From Methanomassiliicoccales archaeon (GTDB lineage: Archaea; Thermoplasmatota; Thermoplasmata; Methanomassiliicoccales; UBA472), in the NCBI GenBank assembly GCA_028679935.1, contig JAJRAL010000031.1, positions 1 to 6,897 of the forward strand: a DNA stretch of 6,897 nt, given 5' to 3'. The position numbers and the translations under genes are program-made. Of the stretch, positions 1 to 6,897 are shown piece by piece. Numbering within the stretch: the stretch's first letter is position 1; every line of letters begins with the position of its first letter. Below the pieces are notes generated by a model. That model made no database searches. It had not been told where the DNA came from and saw only the letters and a list, made by a program, of their open reading frames with translations.

Positions 1-52
1 CGCACATGAGTATCCCGGGCCTAGTCTCCCCACCGCACGACACGCAGGCCAT
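1..52 (-). CDS. 5' end of a probable zinc-ribbon protein (possibly NMD3-like), cut by the window edge
   Basis: Reading the minus strand from an ATG at 52-50 gives an open frame of 17 complete codons to the window edge, MACVSCGGETRPGILMC. It contains Cys-x-x-Cys (residues 3-6) and a further Cys at 17, the spacing expected for the first half of a zinc ribbon. A weak purine-rich GAGG lies 3 nt before the ATG. The start is 38 nt after the Elp3 stop on the same strand, so it may be the next gene in that operon. Archaeal NMD3-type ribosome export/biogenesis proteins begin with a similar CxxC, but 17 residues cannot separate NMD3 from other zinc-ribbon proteins. Coding status is moderately likely; the family is a guess. 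Confidence 0.45.
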   Translation of the reverse strand, partial: MACVSCGGETRPGILMC

Positions 53-90
53 TTTCCTCGCGGCAAGGATGCGCGGGACCGATTAAGTAA

Positions 91-1644
91 TTATCTGGCT
101 CTGAGCGGCTTGGCCATGTGAGCCCCGGAACGCAGGTAGCCGAGCGACTCGTAGTAGCGGCGCACCCCGACGCCGCTGGTGACCATGATCTCGTTGCAGC
201 CCGCCTCGGCCGCCTGCCTCTCCGCCTCGGCCACCAGGCCCTTGCCGAGGCCGCGGTGCTGCCACTCTCCGCCAGACTTGCCGATCTGCGCCACCAGCCC
301 GAAGACCTTCAGCTCGCGCAGGTGAGCCTCGATGCCATCAGCGTTGATCCTCAACCTCGCGTAGCCGACCAATAGCTCGTCTGGCAGTTCGAGCGCGACG
401 AACCTCTCCTCGCCGCCCGAGGCGCGATAGCTCTCCGTCCTCGTCTCGATCTCCTCCAGCCTCGAGAGCGGAACGCGGTTCAGCCCGACCTCGCGGCAGC
501 GGATGCACCTGCACCTCAGCCCCTGCGAGCGCAGCCTCGCCTTCGCCAGTTCCCGAAGGTGGGATTTGTCCACGCCCGCCTCGATCAGCTGCACCGGGAT
601 GTCCCTCTGGATCCTCTGTATCCTGGCCCACTTCGGCACGAGCGCCTTCATCGCCGCCACGACCTGCGTCGCGCGCTCGGTGTCGTAGGGCTCGTACTCG
701 CCGTGCTTCCAGGAATCGTAGAGCGGCGTGCCCTTGACGACCAGGGTCGGGTAGATCTTCAGCATGTCGGGTCGGAAGCGCTCGTCCTCGAAGACCGTGC
801 GGAACGACTCGATGTCCTTCTCCGGTCCGGCGCCGGGAAGGCCGGGCATGAGGTGGTAGCAGACCTTCAGCCCCTTCTCCTTCGCGACCCTCGTAGCCTC
901 CACCACCTCCTTCACTCCGTGCCCCCGGTGGACGCATCTGAGGATGTTGTCATCCAGTCTCTGGACCCCGAACTCGACGCGCGTCGTGCCGAGGCTCATG
1001 CAGTGTTCCGCCATCGCCTCGTCGAACGTGTCCGGCCTCGTCTCGATTGTCAGGCCGATGCAGCGGTGGGGCGCCGTCTCGTTGAGGGCCTGCGCCTCCG
1101 CGAGATTCAACGAGTCTCGTTCGTTCATCGCGTCGAAGCAGCCCTTGACGAACCATTCTTGGTAGTCGAGGGGTCGCGATGTGAACGTGCCGCCCATCAC
1201 GATCAGGTCGATCTTCCCCGTCGCGTGGCCGATCGCCTCGAGCTGCTCCATTCTCTTTGCAGTTTGGCGATGAGGCTCGAACTGATTCGATATCGCCCTC
1301 CTCGCCGCCGGCTCCTTGCCGGTGTAGGATTGAGGCGAGTCGTTCTCGACGCCCCCAGGGCAGTAGGTGCAACGGCCGTGCGGGCACGGCGCGGGAGAGG
1401 TCATCGTGGCGACCACCGCCACGCCGCTAAGGGTGCGCACAGGCTTGCGGCGCAGCACCTCCTTCACGAGGGGGCGTAGCTCGTCGCTCGCCCTCGCCAG
1501 CGTCTCCGAGTTGGGCGGGAGCGTCTCAAAATGCAGCTCGCGGCAGAGCTGTATCTTCCGCTTCTGCAACTGCGCCTTGTCGGCGATCTTGCCGCTCGCG
1601 ATCTCCGCGAGGAGCGTCTCGTGGAAGTCCACGTCCCCGCCCAT
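91..1644 (-). CDS. elp3: Elp3: tRNA uridine-34 5-carboxymethyl synthase (radical SAM plus acetyltransferase)
   Basis: Elp3 uses acetyl-CoA and a radical-SAM centre to attach a carboxymethyl group at C5 of wobble uridine 34 in certain tRNAs, a cytosolic reaction; archaeal Elp3 can act without other Elongator subunits. The 517-residue product matches archaeal family length. Visible motifs are the 4Fe-4S cluster cysteines C87, C92 and C95 (CPHGRCTYC followed by PGG), the QSYTGKEP segment (105-112), GLTIETRPD (197-205), VEFGVQ (223-228), the zinc-site cluster RCRCIRC (377-383), and a C-terminal GNAT domain (about 415-517) with the acetyl-CoA loop HRGLGKGL (463-470) and RRYYESLGY (495-503). The start at 1644 is chosen because GGAGG lies 4 nt upstream; the frame stays open further upstream, but that sequence is an Arg/Pro-rich shadow of the neighbouring genes. 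An ATG at 1662 is the only close alternative. It is last of the complete genes in the left cluster, 35 nt after the small membrane protein. Confidence 0.96.
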   Translation of the reverse strand: MGGDVDFHETLLAEIASGKIADKAQLQKRKIQLCRELHFETLPPNSETLARASDELRPLVKEVLRRKPVRTLSGVAVVATMTSPAPCPHGRCTYCPGGVENDSPQSYTGKEPAARRAISNQFEPHRQTAKRMEQLEAIGHATGKIDLIVMGGTFTSRPLDYQEWFVKGCFDAMNERDSLNLAEAQALNETAPHRCIGLTIETRPDTFDEAMAEHCMSLGTTRVEFGVQRLDDNILRCVHRGHGVKEVVEATRVAKEKGLKVCYHLMPGLPGAGPEKDIESFRTVFEDERFRPDMLKIYPTLVVKGTPLYDSWKHGEYEPYDTERATQVVAAMKALVPKWARIQRIQRDIPVQLIEAGVDKSHLRELAKARLRSQGLRCRCIRCREVGLNRVPLSRLEEIETRTESYRASGGEERFVALELPDELLVGYARLRINADGIEAHLRELKVFGLVAQIGKSGGEWQHRGLGKGLVAEAERQAAEAGCNEIMVTSGVGVRRYYESLGYLRSGAHMAKPLRAR

Positions 1645-1648
1645 GCGC

Positions 1649-1653
1649 CCTCC
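1649..1653 (-). promoter_or_regulatory. Shine-Dalgarno site that fixes the Elp3 start
   Basis: The minus strand reads CGGAGGGCGC immediately before the ATG at 1644-1642, placing GGAGG 4 nt from the start. The site lies downstream of the alternative ATG at 1662, so it cannot serve that codon. This favours the shorter product. Confidence 0.7.
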
Positions 1654-1679
1654 GTTTATCATCCTGTCGATTCGGCCGA

Positions 1680-1862
1680 CTACGGGGATCGCTCCTTCGC
1701 GATGCCGTAGACGATGCCGACGAGGCTGAAGAGGAGTATGAGCACGCCGGCGCCGGCCAGGAGCACTATGTTGAAGGTCAGCCCGATCACCGAGACGACG
1801 ACAGCGGCGAGGCTGAGGAGGGCGTACAGCTGCCACTCGCTCAGGCCGAGTATCTTCCTCAT
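1680..1862 (-). CDS. Small two-helix membrane protein of unknown function
   Basis: The 60-residue product begins MRKILGLSEWQLYALLSL and is mostly hydrophobic, with two adjacent predicted membrane helices at about residues 11-30 and 33-53 separated by a short FN turn, and a charged KERSP end. I do not recognise a family. It starts 8 nt after the stop of the upstream 100-aa gene and ends 35 nt before the Elp3 start, so it should be co-transcribed with both. No clear Shine-Dalgarno site precedes the ATG at 1862, consistent with translational coupling to the gene before it. The frame is open further upstream, but that part overlaps the 100-aa gene and has the Arg-rich composition of a shadow frame. 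Confidence 0.68.
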   Translation of the reverse strand: MRKILGLSEWQLYALLSLAAVVVSVIGLTFNIVLLAGAGVLILLFSLVGIVYGIAKERSP

Positions 1863-1870
1863 CGATGCAC

Positions 1871-2173
1871 TCAGCCGATGTACTTGTCCTGCTCGTTCGG
1901 CCCCTTCTTCTTGTCCTTCTCCTCCGGTTTGTAGGACAGGACGTCGATCGCGAGAACGGTCATGATGGGCACTATTCTCAGAATGCCTTTCTCTTCCGGC
2001 TTCTCCGGGTCGACCTCTAGCGCGAGAGCGGAGTCGTTGCCGAACTGGGTATAGCCCTTGAACGTGCCGACGGTGACGATCGCCTCCGGCCCGCTGCCCC
2101 GGCTGACGACCTTGTACCTCGAACCCTTCGTCAGATTCATCTCCTCTGAACTCTGGCACCTGACATCGGCCAT
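1871..2173 (-). CDS. Conserved-looking 100-aa soluble protein, possible small beta-barrel
   Basis: The product (MADVRCQSSEE...) has alternating beta-rich segments: RYKVVSRG, AIVTVGTFKGYTQFG, SALALEVD, GILRIVPIMTVLAIDVL. It then ends in a Lys/Glu-rich tail (KPEEKDKKKGPNEQDKYIG). The strand-turn pattern with a G-x-F-x-G-Y motif recalls Sm/SH3-like small barrels, but this is a fold guess and not a family assignment. The ATG at 2173 is preferred because GGAGG sits 7 nt upstream; an ATG at 2179 overlaps the upstream stop as ATGA but lies only 1 nt from that GGAGG. A third candidate, ATG at 2140 (MNLTKG), has a purine run directly abutting it. The gene is tightly coupled to the winged-helix gene upstream and to the membrane protein downstream. 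Confidence 0.8.
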   Translation of the reverse strand: MADVRCQSSEEMNLTKGSRYKVVSRGSGPEAIVTVGTFKGYTQFGNDSALALEVDPEKPEEKGILRIVPIMTVLAIDVLSYKPEEKDKKKGPNEQDKYIG

Positions 2174-2175
2174 CT

Positions 2176-2625
2176 TCATCCCTCCTCGATCAGCTTCTGC
2201 AGGTGGTCGACGGTCTTGCGGTACGAGTCCATCGCCATCTCGACGTTCGCCTCGGTGAAGTTCCAGGCCTTGGACAGGTCCCCGTAGCGGACGCGGTAGC
2301 CCTTCTTCCTCTCCTTGCCCTTCTCCACGTCGACCTCCTCCAGCAGGTCGATGCCCTTGAGCTTGTTCAGATGCCGGTAGATCGTCGGCTTGGTCGTCTT
2401 GAGCTTGGCGGCGAGCTCCTCGACCGTCCAGGCGCGCTTCATGCTGCCGAGGAAGCACTCGAGGAACATCTTGTACGGCACGCTCTCCTGGATGCTCTTC
2501 GCCTCGGTCTTCGGATCGTATCCCTTGGGAAGGTAGCCGATCATCACCAGGAACTGGAGCGCGACATCATCGGCATCGTCCAGCGGTGTGAGCGGCGTGT
2601 TGCTGACAACCTGAAGTTCGAACAT
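2176..2625 (-). CDS. Winged-helix (ArsR-like) DNA-binding regulator
   Basis: The 149-residue product (MFELQVVSNTPLTPLDDADD...) has a helix-turn-helix at about residues 67-98: TVEELAAKLKTTKPTIYRHL followed by NKLKGIDLLEE. A basic wing follows (KGKERKKGYRVRYGD), then a C-terminal helix (about 121-149) suited to dimerisation. This layout is typical of archaeal ArsR/MarR-like winged-helix repressors. No metal-site cysteine pair is obvious, so the signal is unknown. The ATG at 2625 is chosen because GGAG is 8 nt upstream; in-frame alternatives are ATG at 2646 and TTG at 2652. It heads the minus-strand cluster and lies divergent to the ABC importer operon, so it could control either. That regulatory link is inference from position only. 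Confidence 0.85.
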   Translation of the reverse strand: MFELQVVSNTPLTPLDDADDVALQFLVMIGYLPKGYDPKTEAKSIQESVPYKMFLECFLGSMKRAWTVEELAAKLKTTKPTIYRHLNKLKGIDLLEEVDVEKGKERKKGYRVRYGDLSKAWNFTEANVEMAMDSYRKTVDHLQKLIEEG

Positions 2626-2779
2626 TTTATCGGCTCCGGTTATCATTTTCAATCCTAGTTATTGTTTTCCATCGTCTGGAGCTTCTCTGATCGCTCGCGG
2701 CGGCCTTCACGATTGAGAACCCGATGGCAAGGGTCTGGGGCGGAGTCTTTTCCCCGTTAAGGTCACTAGCCCGCTCTTC

Positions 2780-2787
2780 TTGTACAA
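2780..2787. promoter_or_regulatory. TTGTACAA palindrome, possible operator
   Basis: This is a perfect 8-bp inverted repeat about 35 nt upstream of the TATA-like element of the ABC operon. A CTTGT half at 2779-2783 is also mirrored by ACAAG at 2804-2808, giving a longer, gapped symmetry. The location would suit an activator or repressor site, but an 8-bp palindrome can occur by chance and no protein is known to bind it. Confidence 0.25.
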
Positions 2788-2821
2788 CTAGGACACTGAA
2801 TGGACAAGAATAGAGAAGCAA

Positions 2822-2827
2822 TTTATA
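2822..2827 (+). promoter_or_regulatory. Archaeal TATA-like promoter element of the ABC importer operon
   Basis: TTTATA is followed by CC and preceded by a purine-rich AGAAGCA that could act as BRE. An archaeal start site about 25 nt downstream would fall near 2848-2852, leaving a short leader that carries the ribosome site at 2850-2855. The spacing fits, but this is inferred from sequence only. Confidence 0.5.
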
Positions 2828-2849
2828 CCATCCGACCTTTCGAATGATT

Positions 2850-2855
2850 GAGGGG
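2850..2855 (+). promoter_or_regulatory. Shine-Dalgarno site supporting a TTG start
   Basis: GAGGGG ends 9 nt before the TTG at 2865. The nearest upstream ATG (2844) runs into TAG within four codons, and no ATG or GTG start lies in frame before the hydrophobic N-terminal helix, so TTG is the best start for the substrate-binding protein. Confidence 0.6.
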
Positions 2856-2864
2856 TAGATCCCT

Positions 2865-3965
2865 TTGAACAAGAAGATAGCAATTGCAGCAGTACTGGTC
2901 GTTGCGATCGTCGTCGTCGCAGCAGTCGCCGTCATCTTCTGGCCGAAGAGCTCGCAACCGACCAACGTCATTTACTGGACTCAGATTGCGCCCGTGCAGC
3001 AGAAGGCGAACCTCCAGTCGGGAACGGTGCAGGGAGCCGTCAGCTGGGAGCCCTATGTCTCGGACTCGCTGGTCGACGGGACAGCGACCGTAGTTAAGTG
3101 GTCAGGTCAGATCTGGCCTCACCACCCGTGCTGCGTCGTGGCGGTCAGGTACTCGACGACGTTCTCTAAGAACGCCACCGACATGGACCTCGTCGCCCGC
3201 GTGCTGAGGGCGCACATTGATGCCACCAACTGGATCGTGAAGACGTACCAGGAAGGCTCCGGGGCGAACTACACTGCCCTGCTGAATATGGGGGCCGTGT
3301 TCAGCCTGCGCAATACCACCGTGGTCGCATCTGCGCTCGCTGACACCGAGTACGACTACAACCTGACCACGGATGTGAAGGTTGCCCTGACGAACTTCAC
3401 GGAGATGTTCAAGAGCCTCGGGCAGTTCAGCGATCCGAGCAGCTACGGCGGCTACTCCACAGCGTCGGCCTTCATCAACGCGACCGTGGACACGAGCTAC
3501 TTGACCGCGGCGATGTCCGTCACGCCCAGCGCGTCCATACTTGGGACGGTCAGGCTCGGATACCTCAACGGCGACCTTCACCAGTTCGCTCGCGTGGTCG
3601 CGTCGAACACAACCATCTGGGGCGGACAGACGCTGTTTGAGAAGTACGGTGTGCACATCACGTCGCCCGGCCCGTACGCCAACGGTCCGGCGGTCATGGG
3701 CGGCTTCGCGGCAGGCGTGATCGACATGGGATACCTCGGCGCGCCGCCTGCGATCCTGCTGAAGATCAACGCCGGCACCGCGATTGATATCGTTGCGCTG
3801 GCGAATGCGGAAGGCTCGGCGATCATCGCGAAGAGCCCGATCACCAGCCTAGCGGACCTGGTCGGCAAGACCGTGGCAACTCCTGGACCTGGGTCGATAC
3901 AGCACCTCCTCCTGATGTACTACGTGACCCAGCAGGGCTACCAGCTGAAACTCTCGGGGACGTAG
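2865..3965 (+). CDS. ABC importer substrate-binding protein, NMT1/SsuA-like, apparently circularly permuted
   Basis: The 366-residue protein should sit outside the membrane and bind the solute for the adjacent permease and ATPase. Residues 5-25 form an uncleaved anchor or signal helix after MNKK; there is no lipobox Cys. Residues about 34-215 match the usual C-terminal lobe of the family, beginning with the interlobe strand and GTVQGAVSWEPYVSD (53-67; compare GSVDAWVIWDPF in E. coli SsuA). Residues about 226-366 match the usual N-terminal lobe: VRLGYLNGDLHQFA (229-242), FAAGVIDMGYLGAPPAI (281-297), SPITSLADLVGKTVATPGPGS (324-344, two residues trimmed in the family core). The lobe order is therefore reversed. 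Seven N-x-T sequons suggest glycosylation, and Cys89-Cys90 is the only cysteine pair. It starts at TTG behind GAGGGG and is followed after 44 nt by the permease. The substrate (sulfonate, nitrate, taurine, pyrimidine precursor or other) cannot be told from sequence. Confidence 0.9.
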   Translation: MNKKIAIAAVLVVAIVVVAAVAVIFWPKSSQPTNVIYWTQIAPVQQKANLQSGTVQGAVSWEPYVSDSLVDGTATVVKWSGQIWPHHPCCVVAVRYSTTFSKNATDMDLVARVLRAHIDATNWIVKTYQEGSGANYTALLNMGAVFSLRNTTVVASALADTEYDYNLTTDVKVALTNFTEMFKSLGQFSDPSSYGGYSTASAFINATVDTSYLTAAMSVTPSASILGTVRLGYLNGDLHQFARVVASNTTIWGGQTLFEKYGVHITSPGPYANGPAVMGGFAAGVIDMGYLGAPPAILLKINAGTAIDIVALANAEGSAIIAKSPITSLADLVGKTVATPGPGSIQHLLLMYYVTQQGYQLKLSGT

Positions 3966-3971
3966 TCCCCG
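3955..3971 (+). terminator. GC-rich stem-loop across the substrate-binding protein stop codon (possible attenuator or mRNA 3'-end stabiliser)
   Basis: GGGGAC (3956-3961) pairs with GTCCCC (3965-3970) around a GTA loop, and a C-G pair at 3955/3971 extends the stem to 7 bp. The stop codon TAG (3963-3965) is inside it. A pyrimidine- and T-rich run (CCCTTTTCTCCCTTCATTTG) follows up to 3995. Such elements after the first gene of ABC operons often lower expression of the membrane genes relative to the binding protein; whether this one terminates or only stabilises the mRNA is unknown. Confidence 0.45.
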
Positions 3972-4009
3972 CAAACCCTTTTCTCCCTTCATTTGTTTAA
4001 GGTGCCACA

Positions 4010-4831
4010 ATGAGCGACGGGTCGCGCTACCTTTTTGGGATAATAAAGAAGGAACAGGCCAGGTCGCTCTCGATCAAAATCGCGATCACTGTCGCCTCGC
4101 TCGTAGTCTTCATCATCGTCTGGTGGTTGATCGCCCTCCAGCTGGACTTGGCCTACGTGCCGACGCCTGACAAGGTATTCGCAGCCTTCATCGACTCTTT
4201 CCAGACGCCGGACATCGTCCTCGGCACGACGATGTGGGACAACATCGGCGCCAGCCTGGAGCGCTTCGCCATCGGGTTCGCCCTGGCCTTTCTGCTGGCC
4301 CTGCCGATCGGCCTCCTAATGGGCTACTTCCACTTCGCGGACATGTTCCTAATGCCGCTGGTCGAGATCTTCCGCCCGATACCTCCGATAGCGTGGGTGC
4401 CGGTCTTCCTGCTCATCTTCAGCGTGTTCTGGGGACCGGTAATGGTCATCCTCATTGGCGTCTTCTTCCCGTTGCTCTCCAACGTCATCTTCGGCGTCAG
4501 GTCAGTCGACAAATCGCTCATCGACGCGGCCAAGACGATGGGCGCGAAACGGACCCAGATGTTCAGCAAGGTGATCCTCCCGTACACCGTGCCCTACCTG
4601 ATGACCGGTATCACCATCGGCCTCGGGATCGGCTGGATGTGCATCGTCGCGGCGGAGATGATCGGCGCCGTAGGCGGAGGCGTAGGCTACTACATCCAGT
4701 ACACCGAGAACATCGGCAAGTTCGACTACATGTACGCCGGAATGGCCGTCATCGCGATCCTCGGCATACTCACCGTCGGCGTGAGCAGAATCGTCGAGAA
4801 GCAGCTGAACAGAAGGATGGGGATCAAATGA
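4010..4831 (+). CDS. ABC importer permease, SsuC/TauC-like (BPD transport family)
   Basis: The 273-residue inner subunit should form the membrane channel as a homodimer. It has an N-terminal cytosolic stretch (1-22) and about six membrane helices, the first at about 24-44. Family marks are FRPIPPIAWVPVFLL (121-135), typical of nitrate/sulfonate/taurine permeases, and the EAA coupling loop DAAKTMGAKRTQMFSKVILP (172-191) that docks onto the ATPase. Length and motif order are normal, with no sign of truncation. A weak GGTG lies 6 nt before the ATG, downstream of the hairpin at 3955-3971. Its stop overlaps the ATPase start as ATGA (4828-4831), showing translational coupling. It is probably the sole permease, as only one is encoded here. 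Confidence 0.96.
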   Translation: MSDGSRYLFGIIKKEQARSLSIKIAITVASLVVFIIVWWLIALQLDLAYVPTPDKVFAAFIDSFQTPDIVLGTTMWDNIGASLERFAIGFALAFLLALPIGLLMGYFHFADMFLMPLVEIFRPIPPIAWVPVFLLIFSVFWGPVMVILIGVFFPLLSNVIFGVRSVDKSLIDAAKTMGAKRTQMFSKVILPYTVPYLMTGITIGLGIGWMCIVAAEMIGAVGGGVGYYIQYTENIGKFDYMYAGMAVIAILGILTVGVSRIVEKQLNRRMGIK

Positions 4832-5634
4832 TACTCTCGATCCGCAACCTGACCAAGAAGTTCCCCACCGAGGACAAGGACCTCGTGGCAATCCAGGACT
4901 TCAGCCTTGACATCGAGGAGGGGGAGTTCGTCTGTGTGCTCGGCCCATCGGGCTGCGGCAAGACGACGCTGCTCCGCATCATCGCCGGCCTCGAGTCCGC
5001 TTCTGGCGGGGAGATACTCTTCGAGGGCAGGCCGATCGCAGGACCCGGCTCTGACCGAGGTATGGTGTTCCAGGAGTTCGCCCTGCTGCCCTGGAGGAAC
5101 GTCCGCCGTAACATCGAGTTCGGACTGGAGATAAAGAAGGTGCCCCCGGAGGAGAGGAGGAAGATCTCCGACAGGTACATCGACCTCGTCGGGCTGAAAG
5201 GTTTCGAGAGGGCCTACCCATGGTCGCTGAGCGGGGGGATGAAGCAGCGCGTCGGCATCGCCAGGGCGCTCGCGAACGACCCCGCCATCCTGCTCATGGA
5301 CGAACCGTTCGGAGCGCTCGACGCGCAGACGCGCAACCTGATGCAGAAGGAGCTGCTGCGCATCTGGAGGGAAACGAAGAAGACCGTTGTGTTCATCACC
5401 CACTCGGTGGACGAGGCCGTCTACCTCGCGGACCGCATTGTGTTGATGACGTCGAGGCCGGCGACAGTCCGCGGGATAGTCAAGATATCCTGGACCAGGC
5501 CGAGGGACCGCGCCTCCGTCGAGTTCGCCCAGCTGAGGAAGGAGATCCTCGAGCAGCTGGAACGCGAGGTGTCCTGCACTCCGCCGATAATCACGCCTAC
5601 AGAGCTTTCTTCGCCGCAACCTCGATCGCCCTGA
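4828..5634 (+). CDS. ABC importer ATPase, SsuB/TauB-like
   Basis: The 268-residue cytosolic ATPase should power the importer. All key motifs are intact: Walker A GPSGCGKTT (39-47), Q-loop FQEFALLPW (81-89), signature LSGGMKQRVGIARAL (134-148), Walker B ILLMDEP with D-loop FGALD (154-165), and the H-loop His192 in FITHS. FQEFALLPWRNV is typical of the nitrate/sulfonate/taurine class. The ATG is chosen because it overlaps the permease stop and has GGGGA 4 nt upstream; the frame is open far into the permease gene but that is shadow sequence. The last residues (about 249-268, ending TELSSPQPRSP) are Pro/Ser-rich and the final dozen are encoded by DNA antisense to the convergent regulator gene, so this tail is probably a non-conserved extension. 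Confidence 0.97.
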   Translation: MILSIRNLTKKFPTEDKDLVAIQDFSLDIEEGEFVCVLGPSGCGKTTLLRIIAGLESASGGEILFEGRPIAGPGSDRGMVFQEFALLPWRNVRRNIEFGLEIKKVPPEERRKISDRYIDLVGLKGFERAYPWSLSGGMKQRVGIARALANDPAILLMDEPFGALDAQTRNLMQKELLRIWRETKKTVVFITHSVDEAVYLADRIVLMTSRPATVRGIVKISWTRPRDRASVEFAQLRKEILEQLEREVSCTPPIITPTELSSPQPRSP

Positions 5635-6118
5635 GGACCGAGTCCTTCGGGATGACGACCGACACCGGTATCGTGAGTATCTTCTCGACCGTCGAGGCGA
5701 CGATCGGCGCGCAGACGACCGCCAGCGCGCCGTCCCTCTCCGCCAGAACGGCGGCGATGATCGCCTCCTCCATCGTCTGGGCCGGATACTCCTTGACGCG
5801 CATGCTCTTGTCCGCCACCTGGACGATGCGCTCCTCGATCTTGTTCAGCACGCCCCTCGCGGCGATGACGGCCACGAACGGACCTTGCGGCGTCTTCTCC
5901 ATCTGGCGCACCGCGCGCATGACGCTCCTCACCGTGCGCAGGTTCGGCTCCCGCCTCTCCTGCAGTATCTTGTAGATCGTGCTCGGAGAAATGGCGGTCC
6001 GCGAGCAGAATTCGTTCACGCTCATGTCCAGATCGTTCTGAAGCACCGACCGCAGCGCGTCCCCGAAACCGTCCGGACCGCGCATGATGCCGGCGATCAG
6101 ATTGTCAACCAGCGACAC
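5597..6118 (-). CDS. XRE-type helix-turn-helix regulator with a C-terminal, possibly ligand-sensing domain
   Basis: The 173-residue product has a Cro/XRE-like HTH at about residues 32-73 (MSVNEFCSRTAISPSTIYKI, then LQERREPNLRTVRSVMRAV). The C-terminal half (about 79-173) alternates strands and helices: FVAVIAARGVLNKIEER, TMEEAIIAAVLAERDGALAV, VASTVEKILTIPVSVVIPKDSVLRAI. This resembles the PrpR N-terminal type of sensor fold, where a segment after a strand reads 'IPV' before a SxxxxxA helix; that match is from memory. The GTG at 6118 is chosen because GGAGG lies 7 nt upstream, inside the end of the preceding gene, and it begins 2 nt after that gene's stop. It should be co-transcribed with the thioredoxin-reductase-like gene and may respond to a related metabolite or redox state. 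Its 3' end overlaps the convergent ATPase gene by 38 nt. Confidence 0.87.
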   Translation of the reverse strand: MSLVDNLIAGIMRGPDGFGDALRSVLQNDLDMSVNEFCSRTAISPSTIYKILQERREPNLRTVRSVMRAVRQMEKTPQGPFVAVIAARGVLNKIEERIVQVADKSMRVKEYPAQTMEEAIIAAVLAERDGALAVVCAPIVASTVEKILTIPVSVVIPKDSVLRAIEVAAKKAL

Positions 6119-6120
6119 TC

Positions 6121-6897
6121 TCAACCCTCCTTCCGTACGTACTTGGCGGCATTCGACCCGGCGACGCATCCCTGGCCCACCGCCTTGGCCAGCTGCCACG
6201 GCTCGCCGGTGACGTCCCCGCAGGCATACAGCCCCGGGACCTCCGTCTCCATCCTTTCGTTGACCTTGATCAGTCCCGACGGATCGGGCAGCAGTCCGAG
6301 GTCCAGGGCAAGGTCCACCGAGCCCTTCGCACCGAGCTCAATGAAGACGCCGTCGACCTCCAGCCTGCTCCCGTCATCGAGCTCCAGTCCGGTCACAACA
6401 TCGTCACCGACAACCTTCGTCGGTCTGCTCGGCGCGACCACTCTGGCCTTCGTCTGCCTGACTTTGCTCATGAGCTGGTCGGAGACGCTCGGTTGATTGG
6501 AGACCCAGTAGACCTCGGAGGCATACTCGGTGAGCAATATCGCTGAGGATGCGGCCGTGCTCTCGTCCCCGATCACTGCCACCTTCCGTCCCCTGAAGAA
6601 ACCGCAGTCGCAGGCGGCACAGTAGCTGACGCCCTTTCCGAGGAACTCCTTCTCACCGGGAACGTTGAGCTTCGCCCTCGATACGCCTGGTGCGAGGACG
6701 AGCGCCTTGCAGCGCAACTCGACGTCGTGGTCCGTCGTGACGACGAACGAATCGTCCTTCCTCTCCGTCCTGAGCACATCCTCCTCGAAGAACTGCGCTC
6801 CGAAGCGCTTCGCCTGCTCGATCCCGAAGGCGAGGATCTGCGCCCCGTCCGTCTTCGGCATCCCGAGGTAGTTCTCGACGTGCGCCTTGTTCAGGCC
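6121..6897 (-). CDS. Thioredoxin-reductase-like flavoprotein, 5' end beyond the window
   Basis: The visible 258 codons continue in frame to the window edge (GLNKAHVENYLGMPKTDGAQ...), so the ATG at 6861 is internal; the N-terminal FAD Rossmann motif and the true start are outside. Visible marks are VENYLGMP, matching the family's 'VENYPGF', the redox-active CAAC (visible residues 93-96) followed by DCGFFRGRKVAVIG, and the C-terminal FAD motif YACGDVTGEPWQLAKAVGQG. The enzyme class passes electrons through FAD and the CxxC to thioredoxin or a related small thiol protein. The pyridine-nucleotide region is atypical: the usual GGGNTA reads GDESTA, and the HRR that binds the NADPH phosphate reads VSN. 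NADPH use is therefore doubtful; some archaeal relatives, such as the Thermoplasma enzyme, are known not to use it. The gene ends 2 nt before the regulator start. Confidence 0.9.
   Translation of the reverse strand, partial: GLNKAHVENYLGMPKTDGAQILAFGIEQAKRFGAQFFEEDVLRTERKDDSFVVTTDHDVELRCKALVLAPGVSRAKLNVPGEKEFLGKGVSYCAACDCGFFRGRKVAVIGDESTAASSAILLTEYASEVYWVSNQPSVSDQLMSKVRQTKARVVAPSRPTKVVGDDVVTGLELDDGSRLEVDGVFIELGAKGSVDLALDLGLLPDPSGLIKVNERMETEVPGLYACGDVTGEPWQLAKAVGQGCVAGSNAAKYVRKEG
6125..6130 (-). promoter_or_regulatory. Shine-Dalgarno site that fixes the GTG start of the XRE regulator
   Basis: The minus strand reads GGAAGGAGGG, then TTGAGA, then GTG at 6118-6116. The complete consensus at ideal spacing outranks the in-frame upstream ATG at 6199, which lies inside the preceding coding sequence. 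Confidence 0.75.

Follow-up and report, generated by a model that had tools for sequence, protein, structure and literature searches.

Our analysis indicates that a substrate-binding protein (SBP) gene in a 6,897-nucleotide stretch of DNA from a Methanomassiliicoccales archaeon (contig JAJRAL010000031.1, the whole stretch being hereafter the window) belongs to a NitT/TauT-type importer and was circularly permuted in place, and that this cycle was repeated in its family. We put the probability of this reading at about 0.93. We call A the segment running from the start of lobe 1 to GAPPAIL, B the segment from IDIVALAN to the SIQHLLL helix, and C the segment from NVIYW to the end of the canonical protein. 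Proteins with the order canonical for the NitT/TauT-type family read A-B-C, an order that the window protein lacks: segment hidden Markov models (HMMs) built from the family read it as anchor-C-A-B (approximate limits in Table 1). Its open reading frame (positions 2865-3965, plus strand, TTG start, 366 residues) is uninterrupted, as stated in an original prediction made from the letters alone. Segment C comprises the later part of lobe 2, the return strand WPHHPCCVVAVR and the lobe-1 helices that close the canonical protein. Segment A holds the canonical N-terminal part of lobe 1 (LGYLNGDLHQ through GYLGAPPAILLK), and B the end of lobe 1 and the start of lobe 2 (IDIVALANAEGSAII through TPGPGSIQHLLLMYY).

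Matches to curated profiles run backwards along the chain, in line with the swapped order originally proposed. Residues 32-126 correspond to positions 150-240 of 252 in Pfam NMT1_2, with a score (73.7 bits against a cut-off of 24.7) that establishes homology to the family. Later residues match early profile positions: 270-361 with 35-133 of 242 in Phosphonate-bd and 282-359 with 39-117 of 216 in NMT1, both slightly below the curated cut-offs, and, as the best stretch in NCBIfam SsuA_fam (TIGR01728), 256-350 with 21-119 of 290. The protein does not reach the curated cut-off of SsuA_fam (82.4 versus 163.5 bits) and is therefore not filed as SsuA. E. coli SsuA itself (2x26) aligns over its residues 25-129 with 257-359 and, weakly, over 136-176 with 38-78.

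Canonical relatives confirm that the protein is a natural circular permutant. Once rotated, it keeps all segments and aligns end to end with 13 listed A-B-C proteins, sharing 46-51% identity with them across 98-99% of its length. Unrotated, it matches one of them, P0123, in crossed pieces (residues 6-221 with 157-368 at 43% and 227-366 with 37-179 at 59%). These relatives come from a search with the window protein, in which 455 of 7994 scored candidates reached E<=1e-3 and 120 of them were listed, and from a second, rotated search that contributed 19 further proteins among the matches listed. Of these 139 proteins, 122 are C-A-B (window protein included), 13 are A-B-C, three are fragments starting inside C and one is a split match. 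The lobe order thus recurs in related genomes, where the original prediction had proposed to look for it, and with the further rotations described below the window protein is one of several in the family, not a one-off. Source names, for those listed matches that carry one, are Methanomassiliicoccales, 'Euryarchaeota' and one partial 'Deltaproteobacteria' entry (1481-base contig). Of 400 genomes drawn from the class to which the genome carrying locus L001 belongs, 131 have matches, and a B-C-A profile matched 138 of the 147 genomes of the order of genome G148, some weakly. In the L001 genome, SsuA_fam matches at E<=1e-3 are limited to two permuted SBP genes.

The window is a single 6897-base record, and one might suspect an assembly or binning artefact in which a collapsed tandem of ordinary SBP genes is read as one. 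Yet most of the listed proteins share the order, with first-search matches spanning 46-100% identity; loci L001 and L002 retain both order and neighbours; and the other rotated and doubled forms (B-C-A, double and C2-A-B-C1) were found on contigs of 1.46-1.94 Mb (L040, L043, L053, L081). An artefact is refuted for the family, and we give it practically no weight.

The genomic context argues for permutation within the operon. The SBP gene stands beside genes for a permease and an ATPase, an arrangement kept in relatives: the permease adjoins it in 32/34 C-A-B, 41/42 B-C-A (including L088), 3/3 double, 3/3 A-B-C and 7/7 C2-A-B-C1 loci. All three A-B-C loci (L046-L048) carry the seven genes of the window (Elp3-like, helix-turn-helix (HTH), SBP, permease, ATPase, HTH regulator and thioredoxin-reductase-like); permutation in place is therefore the most likely history of the SBP. 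Alternatively, the orders could have spread through foreign copies that repeatedly and independently replaced the SBP gene; the SBP and permease trees do disagree at some, mostly weak, branches. We find this very unlikely, given the neighbourhood common to the three A-B-C loci and the agreement of both trees on the B-C-A relatives that stand with the C2-A-B-C1 groups (L060, L085, L086 and L090 in one grouping; L083, L088 and L089 in the other).

The break had been expected to fall cleanly at the hinge. We place it instead within lobe 2, in the loop that follows the SIQHLLLMYY helix and a short strand and leads into the NVIYWT strand; in the model of a canonical relative, strands 173-176 and 185-190 flank this loop. 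In a type II SBP, the type to which we take proteins of the SsuA/TauA/NrtA kind to belong, the chain crosses between the lobes twice, and the site presumably lies between these crossings. The new termini lie in this loop, and the old ones are joined by a short linker, foreseen near residues 210-226 and found near 216-226, where the model of the window protein has a predicted local distance difference test score (pLDDT) > 90. After permutation, lobe 1 would be continuous, lobe 2 would be divided between both chain ends, and the anchor would sit on lobe 2. The canonical relative gives 997 matches in the PDB at E<=1e-3 and the permuted form gives one, which illustrates how ordinary fold searches can miss permuted proteins. 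At the sequence level, the PDB matches of the canonical profile are headed by TauA (E 1.1e-12) and SsuA (E 2.5e-12).

The family contains further rotations. Segment HMMs on fetched loci identified B-C-A in L034-L042 and many others, and C2-A-B-C1, with the cut after the WEPY helix, in L053-L059 (the last piece in L053 and L055 being revealed by comparison with L060). Among the 120 proteins listed in a third search, 77 are B-C-A, 33 C2-A-B-C1 and 7 A-B-C; the other three are partial or overrun (P0207, P0216, P0220). After rotation, the best identities between orders are 52.7% (C-A-B/A-B-C), 45.0% (C-A-B/B-C-A) and 57.9% (B-C-A/C2-A-B-C1), in a comparison made without L003 and L004 (copies of L001 and L002), L049, L061, P0093 and the fragments P0056, P0103 and P0120. 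Two lineages share the loop in which the C2-A-B-C1 cut lies, as judged for each against its own B-C-A relatives: between residues 206-207 and 210 of L060 for L053 and L055, and between residues 184 and 187-189 of L083 for L054 and L056.

Tandem forms accompany these rotations. Locus L148 encodes C-A-B-C-A-B in an open frame of 731 residues, with the window's neighbours present; its copies are 52% identical, and copy 1 lacks the HPCC and GDLHQ motifs. Doubles of the form B-C-A-B-C-A occur in L043, L044, L045 and L149, with copies 61-86% identical. By eye, each double has a single N-terminal anchor, and 3 or 15-16 residues separate the segment matches of its copies. Such in-frame domain repeats in relatives are those of permutation by duplication, and they support the tandem duplication and loss of outer parts that the original prediction had envisaged. 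In L148 (positions 2297-4426) the conserved motifs are kept in copy 2 and lost in copy 1, as if the latter were decaying. Two candidates for trimmed tandems were rejected: L104, labelled C2-A-B-C-A, is the G148 double truncated where the locus ends, and in P0220, labelled C-A-B-C1, the C match runs into the anchor.

A gene may also be split and its two parts rejoined in opposite order, without a tandem stage. Such fission and fusion is a recognised other route to circular permutants (PMC3320104). Against it, few fragments were met among the classified proteins (P0056, P0103, P0120, P0142 and P0216, contig ends unchecked), none was recognised as a stand-alone half, though no search was aimed at halves, and tandem forms occur in both the C-A-B and the B-C-A lineages. 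We regard this route as unlikely here.

How often the order changed was assessed on trees of rotated sequences, for which 227 rows were reduced to 125 at 75% identity and then to subsets. The 104-row tree excludes half of the database C-A-B rows and L005; the 93-row tree excludes further database C-A-B rows, the long branches L091, L037, L092 and L063, and L005, and adds three outgroup rows. Other subsets had 63 rows (topology tests), 87 rows and 61 rows, the last hand-picked from the database (14/34 C2-A-B-C1, 13/77 B-C-A and 5/7 A-B-C) with 29 locus rows. The permease tree has 86 locus rows and the window. On the SBP trees, at least 5 changes are needed with five labels (104 rows), 6 with the outgroup (93 rows) and 8 with seven labels (87 rows). 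The C2-A-B-C1 order is polyphyletic: a single origin is rejected on the SBP (log-likelihood difference 157, p 8.7e-60) and on the neighbouring permease (80.9, p 0.0029). In the permease tree, all included B-C-A, double and C2-A-B-C1 loci form one group (starred branch, 100), joined to four C-A-B loci (starred, 95). Single clades of C-A-B (p 0.511), of all B-C-A types (p 0.316) and of the outgroup with A-B-C (p 0.288) are not rejected.

A separate A-B-C lineage lies inside the permuted clade. L156 reads A-B-C yet shares 67% identity with L056, a C2-A-B-C1 protein, and nests with it and L054 (starred, 99); a tree that unites L156 with the remaining A-B-C proteins is rejected (log-likelihood difference 377, p 1.5e-92). 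Its database copies are P0140, identical and on 3 contigs, and P0141, at 85%. Because its A-B linker resembles, by eye, that of C2-A-B-C1 proteins, the evidence suggests that both kinds were differently trimmed from one tandem ancestor. Starred branches of the 61-row tree force two changes for returned A-B-C and four for C2-A-B-C1. A conservative count is at least five changes (one between A-B-C and C-A-B, one giving B-C-A, two giving C2-A-B-C1 and one giving returned A-B-C), plus two kinds of tandem duplication.

Several points weigh against this history. All trees come from 'quick' searches of rotated alignments with only approximate likelihood ratio (SH-aLRT) supports. The permease tree needs 6 changes of order label where the minimum possible is 4, and it splits up the three A-B-C loci, on weak branches. 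The root is unsure, as distant outgroup paralogs join among B-C-A rows at an unresolved fork. A single clade of returned A-B-C rows is not rejected (p 0.185), so that we can be sure of a single return only. Among the classified loci and proteins, a limited sample, we recognised no intermediate with one end trimmed, such as B-C-A-B. Some of these points invite a different polarity, in which B-C-A or C-A-B is the older state and the A-B-C clade near C-A-B is a second return. The A-B-C rows do nest between two C-A-B groups (support 90, 80 and 82 in the 93-, 104- and 87-row trees), and the outgroup position would fit. Conversely, neither C-A-B as one clade nor the outgroup with A-B-C is rejected, and the 95 branch of the permease tree unites all B-C-A types with four C-A-B loci and leaves A-B-C on the other side. 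We see this polarity as a minority possibility, and retain permutation of an A-B-C ancestor.

In the mechanism we propose, an ancestral A-B-C binding protein would have become C-A-B by circular permutation inside its operon, most likely after the binding domain had been duplicated in frame and in tandem behind one anchor and the outer parts had been lost. The permuted chain would keep the bilobed fold, presumably close on a small ligand and pass it to the adjoining permease. Further rounds of duplication and trimming would then have given rise to B-C-A, to C2-A-B-C1 on at least two occasions, and to A-B-C again. Hydrophobic N-terminal stretches are visible by eye in the printed relatives of every order, and by homology the anchor would tether the binding domain to the membrane while lobe closure delivers the ligand to the permease and ATPase. 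The tethered lobe would change with the chain ends, being lobe 1 for the orders A-B-C and B-C-A and lobe 2 for C-A-B and C2-A-B-C1. We lean towards the view that chain-end position is itself an evolving trait, shifted from A-B-C to C-A-B, B-C-A and C2-A-B-C1, and in one lineage back to A-B-C, by serial tandem duplication behind one anchor and trimming, the tethered lobe being re-chosen each time. As for the ligand, the canonical profile matches TauA and SsuA best in the PDB, which makes a sulfonate or another small anion of that kind the likeliest candidate, though at low confidence.

Known NitT/TauT SBPs (SsuA 2x26 and 3e4r, TauA 6ssy, NrtA/CmpA; PF13379, TIGR01728) have similar sequence segments, a fold like that of the canonical relative, and the same operon of one permease and one ATPase. 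The window protein differs in its C-A-B order, its score below the SsuA_fam cut-off, its transmembrane anchor and an HPCC motif that does not vary across the C-A-B alignment. That binding proteins can be permuted naturally, and that duplication can be the route to permutation, is already known. TpMglB-2 (Tp0684), a circularly permuted glucose-binding protein, is likewise a natural permutant of an ABC-importer binding protein, and its authors raise tethering as a possible reason (PMC4990184). In that account its fold is of Type I (cluster B), with a single altered topology ('Type Ic'); the canonical relative here matches a different, type II family, which shows several successive orders, tandem doubles and a return. 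Circular permutation also relates OpuAC to ProX and molybdate-binding proteins, where any pair is < 24% identical (PMC2395249), compared with up to 58% between orders here, within the same operon and with tandem forms present. Permutation by duplication is a standard model, with intermediates documented in DNA methyltransferases; these and saposin/swaposin share the predicted tandem-repeat route (PMC3320104), whereas here one SBP family has four orders, two kinds of double and a canonical return. Our literature search found in print neither permutation in this SBP family nor serial permutation with tandem forms and return inside one family. Circular permutants are often known only as distant pairs, as in PMC2395249. 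In the related archaea described here, the unpermuted form survives beside several rotations, doubles of both kinds and a return, and neighbouring orders are 45-58% identical. This preserved series opens the duplication-and-trimming model, the choice of cut site and the influence of tether position on an ABC importer to direct testing.

Table 1. Positions in the window of the SBP segments and of neighbouring genes.
Feature	Positions	Strand	Basis
Anchor helix of SBP (residues 1-24)	2865..2936	+	Model helix 3-24
Segment C (residues 34-215)	2964..3509	+	Family segment limits; NMT1_2 profile 150-240
Linker, old C-terminus to old N-terminus (residues 216-224)	3510..3536	+	Between C and A; canonical relatives start/end here
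Segment A (residues 225-302)	3537..3770	+	Family segment limits; SsuA_fam profile 21-119 spans A and B
Segment B (residues 306-361)	3780..3947	+	Family segment limits
ABC transporter permease (PF00528)	4010..4831	+	Pfam
ABC transporter ATPase (PF00005), NitT/TauT type	4828..5634	+	Pfam and NCBIfam
HTH regulator, conserved neighbour	5597..6118	-	Pfam HTH matches under cut-off
Thioredoxin-reductase-like flavoprotein, truncated by window end	6121..6897	-	PF07992
ArsR-like HTH protein, upstream, conserved neighbour	2176..2652	-	PF12840/PF01022
Elp3-like radical SAM/GNAT protein, conserved neighbour	91..1695	-	PF16199, PF04055, PF23613, PF00583

The flanking genes are conserved to different extents. 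The HTH regulator is present in 3/3 A-B-C loci and in 11/34 C-A-B loci, including L001 and L002, most C-A-B loci having been scored with a flank of only 1.5 kb. The thioredoxin-reductase-like gene is kept in 3/3 A-B-C loci and in L001 and L002, the Elp3-like gene in 3/3 A-B-C loci, and the ArsR-like gene likewise lies upstream of the B-C-A loci L034 and L035.

The HPCC motif of the SBP contains a vicinal Cys pair (positions 3129-3134, residues 89-90) that is invariant in 68/68 aligned C-A-B and 10/10 aligned A-B-C proteins and nearly so in 20 aligned B-C-A proteins (alignments A1, 68 rows, and A3, 20 rows, are chosen subsets). Together with the thioredoxin-reductase-like gene beside the operon, this may point to a thiol or metal ligand.

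Some relatives carry additional domains or belong to more divergent groups. The second C-A-B copy in the L001 genome (L005, positions 28-2739, minus strand) lacks the HPCC motif and is fused C-terminally to a long repeat region, fibronectin-III-like by eye, and a C-terminal transmembrane helix. The C-A-B protein P0085 (597 residues) has, by eye, a long coiled-coil-like and immunoglobulin-like N-terminal extension before the permuted domain. L061, L151, L155 and L157-L160 are more divergent B-C-A paralogs with extra sequence between B and C, several in genomes with another B-C-A copy (G242, G329, G108, G305, G437); L061, L151 and L157 were included in the 87-row tree. Finally, an amino-acid-type SBP of another family in the same order (L112; G121:C1 670954-674061, minus strand) also looks, by eye, like an in-frame double, here fused to a permease domain.
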